Source: a virus. Taken from it: a DNA stretch of 60,514 bases. The DNA is taken from the IMG/VR virus record IMGVR_UViG_3300025483_000009, positions 1 through 60,514 of that record. One strand, written 5' to 3'. A program made the translations under genes and the position numbers. This document shows positions 32,967-41,054 of this stretch, piece after piece (position 1 is the first letter of the stretch; the number at the start of each line of letters is the position of its first letter). The notes beneath the pieces were generated by a model. It worked only from the letters and a program-made list of their open reading frames with translations, was not told the origin of the DNA and searched no databases.

Positions 32967-34344
32967 GCGCATCGAACAGACCATTTTACGCAACCTTCTT
33001 TTCACTGAGGAGTATTACCGTAAGGTGGTCCCTTTTTTGAAAGCAGAATATTTCCAAGATCAACATGAAAAAATTGTCTTTGAAGAGATTGCTGACTTTG
33101 CCAGCAAATATGATAAGATTCCTACTAAAGAAGTCCTTACGATTAATCTACAAAATCGTAACGATCTCACAGAGGAAGCATTTCAAGATACAGTATCGAC
33201 CGTCAGTAACCTCACGGACGATTGGGTTGACTACGAGTGGCTCCTTGACGCAACTGAAAAGTGGTGCCAATCCAGAGCAATCTACCTCGCCCTTATGCGG
33301 TCGATCAAAATCGCAGATGGAGGCGATAAGAAAGTATCAAAGGATGCGATACCTAGCATCTTACAAGAGGCCCTGGCAGTATCGTTCGACGAACACATAG
33401 GACACGATTACATTGAACAAGCAGAAGAACGATATGATTTTTATCATAAAGTTGAAGAACGAATCCCCTTTGATCTCGAAAAGTTCAACTACATTACGAA
33501 AGGTGGTCTACCTAACAAGACTCTCAACATCGCTCTTGCTGGAACGGGTGTCGGGAAAAGTCTATTCATGTGCCATATGGCTAGTGCCGCACTCACTGAG
33601 GGGTACAACGTACTCTACATCACATGTGAGATGGCAGAGGAAAAAATTGCTGAGCGAATTGACGCGAACCTCCTCAATGTAAACATCAAAGATATATCTG
33701 AACTGCCTCAAGTTCTTTTCAATTCTAAAGTTCAGGAGATCGCTAGGAAAACTAGAGGCAAACTAATCATCAAAGAGTATCCCACAGCGTCTGCACATTC
33801 AGGACACTTTGGGGCACTCCTGAACGATCTCAAGTTGAAGAAAGATTTCAAACCTGATCTTATCTTCATAGACTATCTTAATATCTGTGCAAGCGTGAGG
33901 TACAAAGGTGCAATTGTTAACTCGTATACCTATGTTAAAGCGATTGCTGAGGAGCTTCGGGGTCTTGCTGTGGAACATAATGTACCTATTGTCAGTGCCA
34001 CTCAGACTACTCGTAGTGGTTATGGCAGTAGTGATCCAGATCTTACCGATACTTCTGAGTCTTTTGGTCTACCTGCTACTGCTGATTTTATGTTTGCCCT
34101 TATCTCTACTGAGGAGCTTGAACAACAGGGTCGCATCATGGTCAAACAACTTAAAAACAGATACAATGACATCACTACCTCACGAAAATTCATGGTGGGA
34201 ATTGACAGATCCAAAATGAAGCTGTATGATGTAGCGGACGATGCATCCGCAATCAGCATCGACACTGAAGATCCTGGTGAGGACTTCAATCAATTTGCAG
34301 AATCACAAAACCGTCTATCTAAATTTGCTGAGTGGAATGTATGA
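32956..34344 (+). CDS. 41: Replicative DNA helicase gp41
   Basis: This DnaB-family hexameric helicase pairs with the primase gp61. It has 462 residues, against 475 in T4. Walker A is [10 protein letters not shown] near residues 195-204, Walker B is [11 protein letters not shown] near 301. It overlaps uvsX by 11 nt and mazG by 4 nt. Confidence 0.97.
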
Positions 34345-34745
34345 CTATTAATTTTGACCGTTATGAAGAATTTGTTTCAGCAGTTACTTCAGACGCTTCT
34401 ACAAACTTTGTTGATTTCGCTGACCGTATTGGTGATCTGGATCGACAAGGTGCCAATATTGAGAGACTTCTTACTGCTGGTGTTGGAATTAATGCTGAGG
34501 GTGGTGAGTTCCTTGAGATCATTAAAAAAATGGTTTTCCAAGGCAAACCCTGGAACGAAGATAATCGTGAGCATCTTATCATTGAGTTGGGTGATGTCAT
34601 GTGGTATGTTGCTCAAGCATGTATGGCACTAGAAGTGTCTTTCGATGAAGTTATCGAACGCAATGTCAAGAAACTTGAGAAGCGTTATCCTGGTGGTTCC
34701 TTTGAGATCCGCCGATCTGAAGTTCGCGCAGCAGGTGACCGATGA
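34341..34745 (+). CDS. mazG: MazG nucleotide pyrophosphohydrolase
   Basis: MazG hydrolyses nucleoside triphosphates; in cyanophages it prefers GTP and dGTP and has been proposed to alter host nucleotide or alarmone pools. The 134-residue protein has the metal-binding pattern EGGEFLEII (ExxE) near residue 53 and HLIIELGDVMWY (ExxD) near 79. ATG 34341 overlaps the gp41 stop. The C-terminal helix ends in a short basic tail. Confidence 0.92.
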   Translation: MTINFDRYEEFVSAVTSDASTNFVDFADRIGDLDRQGANIERLLTAGVGINAEGGEFLEIIKKMVFQGKPWNEDNREHLIIELGDVMWYVAQACMALEVSFDEVIERNVKKLEKRYPGGSFEIRRSEVRAAGDR

Positions 34746-35059
34746 CTGAACAACGACTGCTCTCTGAAGTAAACTTTATCCTATTCACCAAGGACTCTTG
34801 TGGTCCTTGTGGTCTGGTAAAGCGTTACTTCAACGCTCTCAAAGATGACCGCACTAAACTCATTCAGGAAGTTCAACTGGAAGACTTCAGTGATGAACCT
34901 ATCCCTGAAGAGAACCTTGCCATTGCTAAAAAGTATGGTGTGACTGCTACTCCTGTCTTGATTGTTACTGATGGGGACGGTAACCTGCTTGAAACCTATT
35001 CCAGCGGTATGCCTATCACCCAGAATATCCGTAAGTTGTGGACTAAGTACGGTGTATAG
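34742..35059 (+). CDS. Thioredoxin-like protein
   Basis: This 105-residue thioredoxin-fold protein has the redox motif CGPC (C20, C23) after FTKDS and a cis-proline loop VTATPVLIV near residue 73. The middle is longer and more acidic than in host thioredoxin. It may supply electrons to the phage ribonucleotide reductase (nrdA/nrdB lie downstream in the window), or modulate host enzymes. It overlaps mazG by 4 nt. Confidence 0.88.
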   Translation: MTEQRLLSEVNFILFTKDSCGPCGLVKRYFNALKDDRTKLIQEVQLEDFSDEPIPEENLAIAKKYGVTATPVLIVTDGDGNLLETYSSGMPITQNIRKLWTKYGV

Positions 35060-35255
35060 TTTCTGGATCCACCTAGTAGCATTCTTCCAAGTGGTTGTGA
35101 TGAACTGCATTCAACCTGTCAACTGGCAGTATTGTTACAGGGTGGACCAGTGGCTCTTGCCAGATCTGGTAGAAGGGTATAAGATATGGTCTGGAGAGAC
35201 CCACCCCTACCAAAATGAAAAAAACTACCTTAAAGACCTACCTCCCTCTAAATAG
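35052..35255 (+). CDS. Small membrane-anchored protein with GTG start
   Basis: This 67-residue protein starts at GTG 35052, 8 nt before the thioredoxin stop. One N-terminal membrane helix (YSFWIHLVAFFQVVVMNCI) is followed by NPVNW-like QPVNWQYCYRVDQWLLPDLV and an aromatic, charged tail. The other in-frame starts would bury it in the thioredoxin gene. The stop overlaps a late box. Function unknown; two Cys and many Trp/Tyr in the soluble part are notable. Confidence 0.5.
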   Translation: MYSFWIHLVAFFQVVVMNCIQPVNWQYCYRVDQWLLPDLVEGYKIWSGETHPYQNEKNYLKDLPPSK

Positions 35256-35276: not shown

Positions 35277-37112
35277 ATGCCACAAGTAAGAGCTACCAAA
35301 CCAAAGATTGCTGGGAAGTATCCTCTGCAAATCAAATATAACTCCCAGGCACTTAATTCTTTCTATCAGACTCAAGCAGAACGAGTCTCGAATACGATTG
35401 ATATTAAGGATGTTGTTGAGAAGCATAATCTCTCTAGTAATGCAGAGACTCATGTTCAACCAGTTGATAATACAAATTCAACTGAGAAGATTAAGTCTGC
35501 ATGGGGTGTAAAGATTACAATCCACCATGCAAAGCATAGAAATTCTATCCTCAATAAAATATACAATGCTCTAGAAAGCAAAGCAGATGAGATTATTCTA
35601 GAGTATCAAAATTTCTTTGCAATGAACCTCTTAAATGTTGTAGTTAGAGGGTTCAAACTGACTAGGAATACTATCTGGTCTCAGGGATCCAATAGTATTT
35701 TCCTGGAGTGCGATGTGTTTGATGATGATGGTAATGTCACTGAGACATTTTATCCATATGCAATTTTTGCTAAGGGAAATGTCAAAGATCAGGGAGATCC
35801 GCATGAACTGATGACTGGTGCTTTGATTGCTATGGGTAGTATCATTCCAGTCGCCAACATTAATACAAAGGATTTAGTTGATAGGAATGCTGCATTAGAC
35901 AATATCACAAATCGAATTCATTCCTATCTTAGTGGTAGTTCTAAGATGGTTGGATGGAAAGAAGCAGAGAGAAAGTTGATCCCAGGTGATCATGTAAACC
36001 TTGCAAAGGCACTGTCTGTTTCTAACTATGTAAATTATTTGATGCAGAGAAACGCTGCTACTGTGGTTAAAGTCTATCAGACTGGTGCTGCATGGGATGC
36101 AGAGATTAGGCACCTTGAGGGTGGTGGTCCAGAGAAAGATCAACTGATTAAATCGTACAATTCTGCCGATCTGATAGTACATTTTGTAAAATCTAGGGTT
36201 AATTATTACTGGGGTCTTTCACTAAAGAAAAAGTCTGGAGCAAATGATGATCCAACCTTATTGAATAAACCATTGGTTGGTGAAGCTTCTAAGAGTGGTA
36301 AGCAAAAAGCAGGATATTTGTACTTAAAGGCACAAGGTAATGAGAAGCGAAACCTAATCAAGGCAGAAGATAATTTTTGGAAACAGGTATACATGGTCAA
36401 GAACGGACCAGCACCTGAGTTTCCTAGAGGTAAAAAATTTGGTGACAATGTAGAACCCACTAACTGGCCACCAGATAAACTACCAGTGAATTGGAAGCAA
36501 AGACTTGATAGTCAACTTGCAGACAATGAAAAGAATGCTGCTTTGACTGGTAGAGAGTTTAAAGGTGACAAGTATCCTACTAACTTTTTCTTTAAAGAGT
36601 TGGACATAGTGTTCAGACGAATCATGAGTGTTCCAGCAAACTTCAGAGAGTTTCTGGACCTTGCATTTAGATTTGACATTGATGATTATGTAAACAATCC
36701 ACACTTCTATTTCAGTCTTATCACTGGAACTGGTGATCTTAAGAATGGAAAGATTGTTGTGTCTAAGGTTGAGGAGAAAAGTAGTGCTTTGATGAAAGAA
36801 GTCTTTAATATTATGTTCAATAAAGGTGTCTCTAATCTTGGCAACCCATCTGCTGTTACTAGACCAGGCACCTTGGAACTGGAGACTACCAAGGGAAAGG
36901 TGCAGGCGTTCGCTTCCAATGCGACAGCTGCCAAACTGTTCTACACCATGTCCATTGACAACATGCCAGTGGTAAACTTAGAGGTGAGATACAAGGGTGC
37001 CATCACTTCATCGCCACAGTTCCAAGTCTTTATCACAACTGAGTTTAAGACTTACTACAAGCGAGCACAACAGATCCTAGAGGCAAAAGGAATCCGCACT
37101 GTCCTACAATGA
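35277..37112 (+). CDS. Unknown 611-residue protein, possibly a nuclease
   Basis: This is the largest unassigned protein in the window. Residues 272-320 contain WDAEIRHLEGG, then SADLIVHF (D298) and WGLSLKKKSG (K317-319), a D...xxK arrangement that resembles PD-(D/E)xK nuclease cores; this is pattern-level only. The middle (residues 340-430) is lysine/proline-rich, and the C-terminal region (VTRPGTLELETTKGKVQ) is beta-rich. It starts after a late box and overlaps the downstream nucleotidyltransferase gene by 4 nt, so the two probably function together. No signal peptide or membrane helix is seen. Confidence 0.85.
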   Translation: MPQVRATKPKIAGKYPLQIKYNSQALNSFYQTQAERVSNTIDIKDVVEKHNLSSNAETHVQPVDNTNSTEKIKSAWGVKITIHHAKHRNSILNKIYNALESKADEIILEYQNFFAMNLLNVVVRGFKLTRNTIWSQGSNSIFLECDVFDDDGNVTETFYPYAIFAKGNVKDQGDPHELMTGALIAMGSIIPVANINTKDLVDRNAALDNITNRIHSYLSGSSKMVGWKEAERKLIPGDHVNLAKALSVSNYVNYLMQRNAATVVKVYQTGAAWDAEIRHLEGGGPEKDQLIKSYNSADLIVHFVKSRVNYYWGLSLKKKSGANDDPTLLNKPLVGEASKSGKQKAGYLYLKAQGNEKRNLIKAEDNFWKQVYMVKNGPAPEFPRGKKFGDNVEPTNWPPDKLPVNWKQRLDSQLADNEKNAALTGREFKGDKYPTNFFFKELDIVFRRIMSVPANFREFLDLAFRFDIDDYVNNPHFYFSLITGTGDLKNGKIVVSKVEEKSSALMKEVFNIMFNKGVSNLGNPSAVTRPGTLELETTKGKVQAFASNATAAKLFYTMSIDNMPVVNLEVRYKGAITSSPQFQVFITTEFKTYYKRAQQILEAKGIRTVLQ

Positions 37113-38332
37113 CTAAGAACCTTCACCTAGAACACATTGAAGATCTGATGCTGATCGAAGGATCGGATGGCATTAAGAGATCGTTTGACTATATTGATGA
37201 TCTAGTAAAAACTTTCTCTGGAGCTCCAAAGAATAACCGTAAGATTTCTACTAAGTGGGATGGAGCACCTGCTATCTTTTGTGGTCCAGACCCAGCAGAT
37301 GGTAAGTTCTTTGTTGCCAAGAAAGGTATCTTCAATAAGAAACCTATCCTATTCAAAAGTATCGAAGAGATTGATGCTGGTGAGAGTCGCGTTGATCTTG
37401 CTAACACATTCAAGGCAGTTTACAGGGGTATGAAACCTCTGTATGACAAAGGTAAACTGAAAGATGTTGTGCAGGGTGACTTTCTATTTCATGCTGGCAC
37501 CAGACAAACCAAGGTTGTCATGGGAGAAAACTGTGTTCTGTTCAAACCACAGTTGATTGCATATTGCATCCCTGATCATGATGATCTGTATGATGCTGCT
37601 AAGAAGTGTAAGGTTTGTGTAGTTATTCATGCTAAGTATCCTGGCAATGGTGCTAAGACTGTTGCTGATTTGTCTGTAAACTTTGGTTTTGATGCGTCAC
37701 ACCTATCTACAGATGACTGTCTGATCATCAGTCCATTTACATCTGAACTTGGATCGAGTATGTCACTCACACCTAGTGAGAAATCTAAGTTGGTGAACTG
37801 GAAGCGTGCTGCTAGAAATCTTACACCCAAGGTAGCACCGTTTGTTGACATGATTGCACCTGAGCATACTGACAACATGGGTGTTGCATATCTACTGAAG
37901 CAATACTTTAATGCTAGGGTCAGGGAAGGACAGAAAATCACCAGTGCATCTAGATTTTATCAAGACTTTTGTGCCTGGTATGAGAATAAATTTAGGACAA
38001 AGTGGGAAGCACTAAAGAATCCTACAGCGATTACTAAATGGAAGAAAAAGTATTGCATCGGAAAGGCAATGCTGGTTGATAACAGGTCTGAGTTTATCAA
38101 CATGGTAGCCCTATATAATACGATCCAGAATATCAAGGGCATATTCATACCTAAGTTTGAAGCAGGAGAGAGGTTCAAAACTTTCTACTACAATGAGGAT
38201 GGAACTTATGAAGTTGGTGATCAGGAAGGTTATGTTGTTGTTAGGGAGTCAACGAACGCAGTAAAGATTGTTCAACGACTCGGTGGATTTAGCGAGAGAA
38301 ACTTCAATGAGATGAAGCGTTGGGCTAAATGA
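37109..38332 (+). CDS. KxDG nucleotidyltransferase (ligase-like; DUF6267-type)
   Basis: This 407-residue protein has the signature of covalent nucleotidyltransferases: ISTKWDGAPAIFCG, with K49 as expected adenylated lysine and D51-G52. QGDFLFHAG near residue 129 fits motif III-like, EGYVVVRE (373-380) fits motif IV and AVKIV (K386) motif V. It could be an RNA or DNA ligase or a capping-type enzyme. It is unlike T4 DNA ligase gp30 and Rnl1/Rnl2 outside the motifs. A helical region near 260-350 may be a substrate-binding domain. It is flanked by the 611-residue protein and an NMNAT-like gene with 4-nt overlaps. Confidence 0.8.
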   Translation: MTKNLHLEHIEDLMLIEGSDGIKRSFDYIDDLVKTFSGAPKNNRKISTKWDGAPAIFCGPDPADGKFFVAKKGIFNKKPILFKSIEEIDAGESRVDLANTFKAVYRGMKPLYDKGKLKDVVQGDFLFHAGTRQTKVVMGENCVLFKPQLIAYCIPDHDDLYDAAKKCKVCVVIHAKYPGNGAKTVADLSVNFGFDASHLSTDDCLIISPFTSELGSSMSLTPSEKSKLVNWKRAARNLTPKVAPFVDMIAPEHTDNMGVAYLLKQYFNARVREGQKITSASRFYQDFCAWYENKFRTKWEALKNPTAITKWKKKYCIGKAMLVDNRSEFINMVALYNTIQNIKGIFIPKFEAGERFKTFYYNEDGTYEVGDQEGYVVVRESTNAVKIVQRLGGFSERNFNEMKRWAK

Positions 38333-38895
38333 ACAGGAAAATCGTACTAGCATTCGGTAGATTTAATCCACCGACAATCGGACACGAAAAACTAATCGAA
38401 GCGTGTGCTACTGCAGCAAGGCAGCATGGGTGTGACTATAAAGTTTACATGAGTATCAAAGTTGATAAAGCAAAGAACCCTTTGCCCGCTGAAGAAAAAC
38501 TCTGGTTTATGAAACAGATGTTTCCCAATCATGCTGAGCATATCTTTGCTGATACTGATGTATCGAATCCGTTTTTGTTGCTAGAAATGTTCAACAAAGA
38601 GTATGATGAAGTTGTGTTTGTTGCTGGTTCTGATAGAGTCTCGAACTATGAGTCCCAGTTCAATAAACATATGAACGGACCTACTGCAACTTTCTATTAC
38701 AGTTCACTTATAATACAATCTTCGGGTGAGAGAGACCCTGACTCTGAGGGTGCTTCTGGTATGTCTGCTAGTAAGATGCGTGCAGCAGTCAAAGAAGGTG
38801 ATATAATATCTTTTAGAAAAGGTATACCAAAAACTTTAGGACGCGCAGAGATGCTGATGCTATACAATGCTGTACATGATGGGATGGGACTATGA
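38329..38895 (+). CDS. NMNAT/cytidylyltransferase-like nucleotidyltransferase
   Basis: This 188-residue alpha/beta phosphodiesterase-type nucleotidyltransferase has GRFNPPTIGHEKLI (residues 10-23) with the HxGH-like TIGH motif and the ISxxSTxxR-like GMSASKMR (144-151). It also has VAGSDR at 98-103. This matches nicotinamide-mononucleotide or phosphopantetheine adenylyltransferases, and related phage proteins (for example NadV/NatV systems) act in NAD synthesis. The exact substrate cannot be told from the sequence. It overlaps both neighbours by 4 nt. Confidence 0.85.
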   Translation: MNRKIVLAFGRFNPPTIGHEKLIEACATAARQHGCDYKVYMSIKVDKAKNPLPAEEKLWFMKQMFPNHAEHIFADTDVSNPFLLLEMFNKEYDEVVFVAGSDRVSNYESQFNKHMNGPTATFYYSSLIIQSSGERDPDSEGASGMSASKMRAAVKEGDIISFRKGIPKTLGRAEMLMLYNAVHDGMGL

Positions 38896-39101
38896 AAGAT
38901 TTTAAAAAACTTAGAGAGCAAGCGACAAGACAATCACATAGGCAAGCACCCTTGAAAGAAGGTGACTTTATTATGTCTTCTAGGACAGGTGATAAGGGAA
39001 CTATCCATCGGTCTGGTGTTAACTATGTGATTGCTATCACTGAGGATGGAAAAATGTTTCGTGAGTGGGTAAAGGATATTCGTCCTATAAATAAAGGATA
39101 G
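38892..39101 (+). CDS. Small KOW-like protein with CTS-like N-terminus
   Basis: This 69-residue basic protein begins MKDFKKLREQ, close to the capsid-targeting sequence of T4 internal proteins (MKTYQEFIAE). The rest, PLKEGDFIMSSRTGDKGTIHRSG and VIAITEDGKMFREWVKDI, forms a KOW/SH3-like beta barrel. The coupling to the nucleotidyltransferase genes suggests shared expression. If the N-terminus is a real targeting signal, gp21 would cleave it and the barrel would be packaged. Confidence 0.65.
   Translation: MKDFKKLREQATRQSHRQAPLKEGDFIMSSRTGDKGTIHRSGVNYVIAITEDGKMFREWVKDIRPINKG
39086..39093 (+). promoter_or_regulatory. Late promoter TATAAATA before the 39.1-kb genes
   Basis: A perfect TATAAATA box lies 29 nt upstream of the gene at 39122 and overlaps the end of the small KOW-like gene. 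It points to late expression of the following genes. Confidence 0.7.
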
Positions 39102-39121: not shown

Positions 39122-39775
39122 ATGGATAAGCAGAGACCTGTTAATAAAATCGCTCATAATGATGCATACTCTGCGTCGCTGATGGAGATGTATACAAATT
39201 GGATGGGTGGAGATTGCTTCCAAGGTAGTCATATCCCTGAAGCATTTGAAGGTATGGATCCTCAGTCTCATGGTGCTGAGATTGAAGACACCACCAAAAA
39301 GAAGAAGGCAGTAAAGAAAGAAAAATCTGTCGCTGAAGATGTTGAGATTCTTGAGCGCGAAGAGTATGAAATCGATGGATTTACTTATGTCATTGAAAAG
39401 CAGAAAGGTCTAGATGGCAAGGCATGTTGGAAAGGATACAAACTTGCTGGCACCAAGAAGAAAGGTGGTAAGACTGTTGACAACTGCGTTAAGGCAGGTT
39501 TTGAACCCGAAGGCAACGAGCTTACCGAAAAGAAAGTACAGTGCCCAGAGTGCAAAGGATCTGGTTGCGGTCACTGTGATGACAAAGGATATCATCTCAA
39601 AGAATACTTTGAGAAAGAGAATGGTAAGATGGTGAATGAGAAGAAACTCGATCCAGTAGGTAAGGAAGATTCTGATATCGACAACGATGGTGATGCAGAT
39701 AAGTCTGATAAGTATCTACATGCTCGCCGTAAGAAAGTCGGTAAGATTGTTGCAATGTCGAAAAAGAAAAAATGA
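39122..39775 (+). CDS. Unknown virion-type protein with zinc finger and Asp-rich motif
   Basis: This 217-residue lysine-rich protein has three recognisable short modules. GKACWKGYKLAGTKKKGGKTV is followed by DNCVK. A DnaJ-like zinc finger CPECKGSGCGHC lies near residue 140. KEDSDIDNDGDADKSDKYL near 183-201 is an EF-hand/dockerin-like calcium loop. Such modules recur in marine phage proteins, some found in virions. It has a strong late promoter. Function is unknown. Confidence 0.75.
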   Translation: MDKQRPVNKIAHNDAYSASLMEMYTNWMGGDCFQGSHIPEAFEGMDPQSHGAEIEDTTKKKKAVKKEKSVAEDVEILEREEYEIDGFTYVIEKQKGLDGKACWKGYKLAGTKKKGGKTVDNCVKAGFEPEGNELTEKKVQCPECKGSGCGHCDDKGYHLKEYFEKENGKMVNEKKLDPVGKEDSDIDNDGDADKSDKYLHARRKKVGKIVAMSKKKK

Positions 39776-40155
39776 AAACATTCAAACAGTTCCGTGAGGA
39801 ATGTGAGTGTAAAGATAAGGAACGCAAAGTAAAGAAGGCAAAGAAAACTGTTGAGGTGATGCCAACTGTAAAGGATGGTCCATCAAGAGAGTATAGACCT
39901 ACAAAGTCTGAGTCTTTTGTTGGCAACTATCAAGGTCCCTTGTATGCAAGACATCCTGATCTGGTCATTGCGGAGAAAGCAGTCTCCAAAAAGCAACAGA
40001 AATTTATGGGTATGGTCCGAGCTGCTCAGAAGGGTGAGGGCGCGTCGTCGCCTGAGGTTGCCAAAGTTGCTTCCAGCATGAAGAAGAAAGATGTGAAAGA
40101 TTTTGCATCCACAAAACACAAAGGGTTGCCTGAAAAAAAGAAGGCAAAACAATAA
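39772..40155 (+). CDS. Basic protein with CTS-like N-terminus
   Basis: This 127-residue, very lysine-rich protein begins MKTFKQFREECECK, which matches the T4 capsid-targeting pattern MKTYQEFIAE at most key positions. The middle has SESFVGNYQGPLYARHPDL, and the C-terminus is basic helical (KKKDVKDFASTKHKGLPEKKKAKQ). A basic, CTS-bearing late protein is what an internal, DNA-associated, co-injected protein should look like. It overlaps the upstream gene by 4 nt. Confidence 0.65.
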   Translation: MKTFKQFREECECKDKERKVKKAKKTVEVMPTVKDGPSREYRPTKSESFVGNYQGPLYARHPDLVIAEKAVSKKQQKFMGMVRAAQKGEGASSPEVAKVASSMKKKDVKDFASTKHKGLPEKKKAKQ

Positions 40156-40463: not shown

Positions 40464-41054
40464 ATGTCTCTATACGGTAGAACTGACAGCAACGCCAATG
40501 TCACCAAGGCTAGCAGAGGCATTGCTGCATCCAGTCAAGCTAAAACAGTTGTCTTCGTTGATGAAACGGAAGCAGCACTCAAAGAAAATAAGGATCGTGG
40601 AATCAACGCTCCTGGATGGTGGTCGTATTACACCTACACCGATGGTTCTGGTGCAACTCGCCACAAAGCAGAGCACCTAGTCACTCTTGCTAATGCAGAT
40701 CTCAACACTAATGAGACTCAGAGTGACGACACTATTGCAGCAGATGTTCAAAACATCGTTACTATTTCTGTACAACCTGCAGATGCATCCGTAACAGCAC
40801 CTGCTGCTGGAACCTTCTCGGTTACTGCATCTGTCACGAGTGGTACAGGTACGATTGCATATCAGTGGCAACTCAGCACAGACAGTGGTGCTTCGTTCTC
40901 TGATATCGCTAGTGCAACATCTTCTTCTTACACCACCCCTGCAACCACTGCAGTAACACTTGACGAGAATGGATATCAGTACAGAGTCAAACTCACCACT
41001 GATACAGGTGCTGCTGAAGTAGTTTCTACCGCTGCTACGCTAACTGTTGCATAA
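40464..41054 (+). CDS. Virion protein with C-terminal Ig-like domain
   Basis: This 196-residue protein has two parts. The N-terminal roughly 90 residues (MSLYGRTDSNANVTKASRG, then GINAPGWWSYYTYTDGSG) recall a conserved cyanomyovirus structural protein. From about residue 98 an Ig-like domain begins (VTISVQPADASVTAPAAG, ATSYQWQ-type IAYQWQLSTDSG, YQYRVKLTT). Ig domains of this kind decorate capsids and tails and bind cell-surface sugars. It is expressed from a strong late promoter. Confidence 0.8.
   Translation: MSLYGRTDSNANVTKASRGIAASSQAKTVVFVDETEAALKENKDRGINAPGWWSYYTYTDGSGATRHKAEHLVTLANADLNTNETQSDDTIAADVQNIVTISVQPADASVTAPAAGTFSVTASVTSGTGTIAYQWQLSTDSGASFSDIASATSSSYTTPATTAVTLDENGYQYRVKLTTDTGAAEVVSTAATLTVA

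Follow-up and report, generated by a model that had tools for sequence, protein, structure and literature searches.

An exchangeable gene slot holding a predicted nuclease ahead of the DUF6267 gene in T4-like marine cyanophages

Organization of the Locus

The window analyzed here is the whole of a 60,514-nucleotide stretch of viral DNA (IMG/VR record IMGVR_UViG_3300025483_000009), and DNA similarity identifies it as a piece of a T4-like marine cyanophage with relatives in the Kyanoviridae. Four open reading frames (ORFs) on its forward strand, here called A, B, C, and D (Table 1), are joined by three ATGA overlaps of 4 nt each, as an original prediction made from the sequence had described. 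Gene A occupies a position that is exchanged among unrelated ORFs in closely related phages, B belongs to the Pfam family DUF6267, C is predicted to be a nucleotidyltransferase of the HIGH superfamily, and D is a small protein. The gene order is gp41 helicase, MazG, thioredoxin-like gene, small ORF, A, B, C, D, and more small late ORFs. The motifs named in the original prediction are all present, namely D298 and SLKKK (residues 315–319) in A, KWDG (49–52), EGYVVV (373–378), and AVKIV in B, and TIGH and SASKMR in C.

DUF6267 with an adjoining nucleotidyltransferase is common to marine cyanophages and is also found in Pelagibacter and Methylophilales phages. Phages bearing DUF6267 together with C count among the most abundant in the sea.

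Table 1. Positions of the genes and features of the locus in the window.
Feature	Positions	Strand	Basis
Gene A, slot occupant, 611 aa, phrog_3060; predicted PD-(D/E)xK-type nuclease	35277..37112	+	conserved residues, model
A Glu177, in DPHELMT helix; candidate motif I	35805..35807	+	invariant, 41 relatives
A Asp298 (YNSxD); candidate motif II; strand 299–305 begins here	36168..36170	+	invariant, 41 relatives; model
A Ser315-Leu-Lys317, strand 308–318; candidate motif III	36219..36227	+	invariant, 41 relatives; model
Gene B, 407 aa, Pfam DUF6267; predicted covalent nucleotidyltransferase, RNA/DNA-ligase superfamily	37109..38332	+	profile, alignment, model
B motif I, K49-W-D-G52; predicted nucleotide-accepting lysine	37253..37264	+	invariant, 27 relatives
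B helical insert, residues 222–352, between motif III region and motif IV	37772..38164	+	AlphaFold2 model
B motif IV, E373-G374	38225..38230	+	invariant, 27 relatives
Gene C, 188 aa; predicted HIGH-superfamily nucleotidyltransferase (T4-GC190 'cytidyltransferase')	38329..38895	+	Pfam CTP_transf_like
C TIGH motif	38374..38385	+	sequence
C SASKMR motif	38764..38781	+	sequence
Gene D, 69 aa, KOW-like by eye, phrog_4808; CTS-like N-terminus MKDFKKLREQA (CTS, capsid-targeting sequence)	38892..39101	+
Leader: terminator-like hairpin CCTCCC...GGGGGG, then T run; directly before slot start codon	35235..35276	+	folding
Candidate late-promoter box TCTAAATA, in 5' arm and loop of hairpin	35247-35254	+	sequence
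MazG, conserved flanking gene	34332..34745	+	Pfam/profile match
Thioredoxin-like flanking gene	34742..35059	+	profile match
Small conserved ORF, 51 aa, phrog_703; end falls inside slot leader	35100..35255	+

Exchange of the Gene in Front of B

The position of A is a slot that is swapped among unrelated ORFs in closely related phages. The phages S-WAM2 and S-RSM4 share MazG (98% identity), B (87.5%), C (95%), and D (98.5%), and their slot ORFs are unrelated. The pairs S-CAM3/S-CAM1, S-8S53/S-PRM1, L212/L189, and L135/S-SM1 behave in the same way. Compared with the window, locus L014 has similar MazG (92%), thioredoxin (98%), B (71%), and D (70%) with an unrelated slot gene, and L007 retains A at 60% while its B is only 46% identical. 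The ORFs found before B in 137 loci formed 17 clusters by BLAST; profile comparison merges some of these (the phrog_1462 group) and leaves others unrelated. Quick trees of 76 phages require at least 26 changes of slot label for B and at least 23 for C.

DNA similarity to S-RSM4, S-H9-1, and S-WAM2 (84–88%) spans the upstream genes and ends a few bases from the start codon of A, where the boundary sequence has the form CCTCC-CTCTAAATA-N-GGAGG-TTTTTT. This sharp junction and the unrelated replacement families indicate that the slot changes by exchange, not by drift. The 611-aa A family occupies the slot in some phages only, and B-C-D is near-constant in cyanophages; the neighborhood survey therefore contradicts the proposal that the four genes form a fixed set.

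Protein A and the Other Slot Families

In an alignment of A with 41 relatives (25–91% identity), E177, D298, S315-L-K317-K318, and E569/R571-Y-K-G are invariant. In the predicted structure (predicted local distance difference test, pLDDT, 83.7), E177 is helical and D298 and K317 stand on neighboring strands. The predicted nuclease part comprises residues ~172–597 and is preceded by an extra N-terminal alpha/beta domain. For the folds of both A and B, Foldseek was non-significant alone and only realignment to the PDB was informative. The best PDB partner of the A model on realignment was HinP1I (Z 8.0, 212/241 residues, 4.7 Å, A residues 174–597), and the next restriction endonucleases (REases) were MspI (Z 5.9) and HincII (Z 4.3). 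Pfam gave no match for A, and when A, B, and slot family 2 were searched by sequence against the PDB, neither single proteins nor profiles found a hit. As residue conservation and fold are independent lines that agree, A is likely to be a PD-(D/E)xK-type nuclease, in line with the nuclease core that had been suspected around D298 and SLKKK.

In A the usual D/ExK of PD-(D/E)xK nucleases takes the variant form SxK. HinP1I and MspI likewise have a non-acidic residue at the (D/E)xK position, and A carries the E-helix, the D, and the hydrophobic-x-K strand in the matching order. A differs from these enzymes in its length of 611 aa, its extra N-terminal domain, the lack of an adjoining methyltransferase, and the lack of detectable sequence similarity. 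The N-terminal domain (residues 16–170) resembles pol-beta/Cid1/RelP nucleotidyltransferase folds on realignment (Z up to 6.6). No conserved GS/DxD catalytic motif was seen in the alignment, and the domain was left without an assignment. A separate observation concerns L359 (Syn33, 143784-145402), where an A-family slot gene is broken into two ORFs and is possibly an inactivated copy.

Conserved E-helix, D, and SxK residues occur in A and in several other slot families. By eye, a D...SxK-type core is seen in about ten unrelated slot families. The core of A in the window reads SADLIVHF..WGLSLKKK, and others read NPADIWLIK..IIGISLKK, KADLVFV..EVCWASHKK, TDITLYF..VYLSVK, and TDILVQF..LGMSAK. Further cores picked out in this way are SDIVFYKNGKIYQCSMK in L229 (the family of the S-SM1 slot), GDIFLTYFDKKILGVSLK in another slot family, TDILIGNMRFSLK in Melnitz, and VDFMLYDDQDRQYQFSVK in S-SZBM1. 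Such a core is absent by eye from the slot ORFs of L209, L202, L195, L192, and L190, which may simply be different genes. A motif count over the slot clusters gave 8/17 against 0.76 expected, which is illustrative only, since these data also helped to shape the motif and one match of the eight (L199) is not at the preferred site.

The Leader Element before the Slot

The hairpin directly before the start codon of A has a minimum free energy of -15.4 kcal/mol, and of the 13 CTAAATA boxes that the window contains, the one before A alone combines an enclosing stem with a T run. As a plain 8-mer, TCTAAATA shows no enrichment in the window (4 found vs 2.5 expected by chance). However, CTAAATA lies within -70 to +30 of 71/119 distinct slot ORFs as compared with 1.4% of random 100-bp windows, so its placement, unlike the bare count, is not due to chance. 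The late-type control that had been proposed for the set is supported. In 36 of the 69 CTAAATA leaders the box is enclosed by a stem no shorter than 5 bp with a T run behind it, and the mean folding energy of these CTAAATA leaders is -11.5, against -4.6 for shuffled flanks. The stem arms covary between phages (CCTCC/GGAGG, CCTTCC/GGAAGG), and unrelated slot ORFs are often preceded by the same leader. From these sequence features, we infer that the leader may act as a terminator against early read-through with a late promoter inside it. A late promoter in a terminator hairpin would be a compact on/off switch.

Protein B Resembles Polynucleotide Ligases

B matches the DUF6267 profile with an E-value of 4e-81 (273.6 bits; gathering cut-off 27). 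Among 27 relatives of at least 25% identity, the invariant positions include the N-terminal HLEHxED, TKWDG (48–52), GD (123–124), EG (373–374), K386, and R390. The KxDG, III, IV (EG), and V (K) motifs follow one another in the order of the ligase superfamily. The AlphaFold2 model of B has a pLDDT of 87.5, and its best 50 PDB rows on realignment are ligases throughout (Z 10.3 to 6.4), including Naegleria RNA ligase (Z 10.3, 188 residues), T4 Rnl2 (8.3), trypanosome REL1 (8.1), and T4 Rnl1 (7.4). Given these motifs and the ligase-only fold matches, B is predicted to be a covalent nucleotidyltransferase with the fold and motifs of polynucleotide ligases dependent on adenosine triphosphate (ATP), as had been expected from its KxDG motif.

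The likeness to T4 Rnl2 and Naegleria Rnl5 consists of KxDG, GD, EG, and K in order and a fold Z of 8–10. In contrast to these ligases, B has a large helical insert before motif IV and lacks a C-terminal or oligonucleotide-binding (OB) domain after motif V; according to the alignment and the model, it ends ~20 residues past motif V and no Rnl2-type C-terminal domain is present. No sequence similarity of B to T4 Rnl2 or Rnl5 was found. DUF6267 has no assigned function in Pfam, and no mention of it was found in the literature searched.

Proteins C and D and Their Occurrence in Virions

C reaches 26.2 bits for CTP_transf_like against a Pfam cut-off of 21 and is predicted to be a HIGH-superfamily enzyme with an adenylyl/cytidylyltransferase fold. 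That part of the original prediction stands, whereas its identity as a nicotinamide mononucleotide adenylyltransferase (NMNAT) is doubtful, as C missed the curated NMNAT and NadR cut-offs (TIGR01526, 22.3 of 341; TIGR00482, 16.7 of 112) and matches the NadR domain only weakly (6.5e-5). The 69-aa D looks KOW-like by eye, as had been noted, but a KOW domain has no Pfam support. Many phage records wrongly name members of the D family 'ribonucleotide reductase alpha subunit' or 'NrdB'.

C and D are fused in S-SM1, S-MbCM25, S-MS29, S-SM2, and S-SZBM1, with D as the C-terminal part, and S-PM2 is recorded with a single open frame that holds the C-terminal half of B followed by C. These fusions point to functional coupling. 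Bridges between B and C and between C and D are formed by PHROG 455 and 395.

C or D has a CTS-like N-terminus (MKxFxxFlxEA, judged by eye) in many phages, and on C relatives such starts include MKKFSAFLNEA (S-SM1), MRFRQFIIEA (S-SZBM1_140), and MKKFSEIIEA. We take these N-termini to be similar to the capsid-targeting peptide of T4. Four papers report relatives of C from virions of other phages. T4-GC190 was found in the S-SM1 virion and is also listed as a cyanophage core gene (PMC3037559). Further relatives were found in the virions of S-SCSM1 (PMC9602691) and of S-CREM2, where the relative is ORF154, accompanied by ORFs 155 and 156 (PMC10665884). S-SZBM1_140 appears in the part of the S-SZBM1 virion list covered here (PMC9146016). 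Two of these papers warn that abundant proteins may reach such lists by carry-over (PMC10665884, PMC9602691). The virion protein S-SZBM1_139 was considered as a D homologue and rejected, since the D domain sits inside S-SZBM1_140.

Among the slot proteins, the nuclease candidate of Melnitz (L155:3704-4789) begins with the CTS-like MQGFKTFLSEA, which suggests direct packaging in that phage. Metagenomic T4-like phages (L054:3240-6122 and L050-L062) encode a 961-aa protein with a CTS-like start, a C-type nucleotidyltransferase domain, a RimK ATP-grasp domain, and a Zn_protease/retropepsin-like domain.

A Proposed Exchangeable Cargo Locus and Its Alternatives

Quick replacement of one gene beside constant neighbors is typical under antagonistic pressure. 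An attack on rival or host DNA has been suggested as the role of Rnl2-nuclease couplings in phages (PMC7824862). On balance, we favor, at about an even chance, a cargo locus of T4-like cyanophages that is expressed late and delivered partly in the capsid, in which the nuclease gene is exchangeable and B-C-D is constant. In such a locus the leader hairpin would halt read-through from the early genes and keep A off early, and the late promoter inside the hairpin would then switch A on. C-D, and in some phages the nuclease too, would be carried in the capsid and delivered along with the DNA into the next cell. There A would cut host or competing-phage DNA, and the kind of nuclease in the slot would be swapped by recombination under changing opposition. 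B would adenylate or seal nucleic-acid ends left by A or by host defenses, and C might supply or recycle a nucleotide or modify an end. The substrate of A and the reaction of B and C are guesses. A more pointed version, tentative at best, would make this a new class of phage conflict locus, in which a hypervariable, swapped nuclease kept silent early by the hairpin, DUF6267, and capsid-delivered C attack competing-phage or host DNA in the next cell.

The component folds are already known, and the virion location of C has been published. Within the limits of the literature searched, no published account of the slot, its nuclease nature, or the leader element was found. The slot reading offers one common function for the unannotated families PHROG 3060, 1462, 26248, 13937, 3560, and 8438, and an explanation for an enzyme with the fold of C inside cyanophage virions. 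The T4 internal proteins and alt locus bear a likeness to this locus in that they give late, CTS-tagged, virion-borne products from a hypervariable position. To our knowledge, the T4 internal proteins are not nuclease-ligase sets, and in the cyanophages the CTS lies on C or D and rarely on the variable gene. In known phage Rnl2-HNH fusions (PMC7824862) the two activities share one protein, whereas here the nuclease is separate, exchangeable, and of the PD-(D/E)xK type, with two more enzymes coupled.

Several results weigh against the cargo locus. The Foldseek E-values are weak, the best REase for A reaching 0.14 and the ligase row for B 0.47, and a Z of 8.0, as obtained for A, is the level that the realignment tool calls a common arrangement. 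A of this window is without a CTS, and SSZBM1_142 (slot) and SSZBM1_141 (B) are absent from the part of the S-SZBM1 virion list covered here (PMC9146016). Finally, in a palindrome avoidance test over 59 genomes, the partial correlation of the purge profile with slot similarity was 0.07 and with the backbone 0.21, the power being low as few slot-sharing pairs stand on different backbones.

The palindrome test bears most directly on the possibility that the slot nucleases are sequence-specific restriction weapons, whose own site is avoided rather than methylated. The resemblance of A to HinP1I and MspI, enzymes of 4-bp palindromes, speaks for it, as do single phages nearly free of one palindrome. 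The window has ACGT 27 times of 133 expected and CCGG 0 of 46; S-SM1 has GTAC 0 of 163, S-SM2 CTAG 0 of 96, L179 AATT 74 of 389, and L209 AGCT 0 of 98. However, GCGC is at 0 in P-HM1, P-HM2, MED4-213, and P-TIM40, whose slots are divergent or unrelated, and GTAC is purged in phages with unrelated slot families. The notion that each phage purges the site of its own slot nuclease failed on same-host phages and in the pairwise test. The purged word tracks lineage or host, not the slot gene, and we consider restriction weapons unlikely. Phage-specific palindrome loss was also observed in L142 (GTAC 0 of 128, GATC 1 of 168), L154, and L155.

Ordinary, fast-drifting accessory genes for virion assembly or DNA packaging, with no role in conflict, are similarly improbable. 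Head genes adjoin, the box is late, and C is detected in virions; moreover, the head-completion protein gp4 of T4 is an REase-fold nuclease required for packaging (PMC7824862). Drift does not account for unrelated replacement at a sharp junction, nor for the near-invariant motifs of B across its relatives.

A repair or end-joining module, as suggested in the original prediction, would have A trim or open ends and B ligate them with the assistance of C and D. A nuclease, a ligase fold, and a nucleotidyltransferase in one overlapping unit would suit such a module, and phage Rnl2 proteins fused to HNH nucleases are known (PMC7824862). A repair nuclease is not expected to change to unrelated families at least 23–26 times, and late control and the virion location of C fit badly. 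The module leaves these and the diversity of the slot unexplained, and we regard it as quite unlikely.

Least probable of all is an NAD-linked role (NAD, nicotinamide adenine dinucleotide), in which C would be a true, virion-delivered NMNAT making or recycling NAD and B would use NAD or ATP: an NMNAT annotation exists in the literature (PMC9602691) and the HIGH and SASKMR-like motifs and the weak NadR match agree with it, but C falls far below every curated NMNAT/NadR cut-off, its fold family also holds phosphopantetheine adenylyltransferases and cytidine triphosphate transferases, and neither NAD-salvage neighbors nor partner genes that consume or reconstitute NAD were seen, so that the counter-defense based on NAD once suggested for the locus finds no footing.

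Downstream ORFs

Beyond D, the ORF at 39772-40155 encodes a DUF3008 domain and has the CTS-like start MKTFKQFREE. The ORF at 40464-41054 has the start MSLYGRTDSNAN, which matches S-SZBM1_136, a protein detected in the virion; virion genes thus lie closely downstream of the module.

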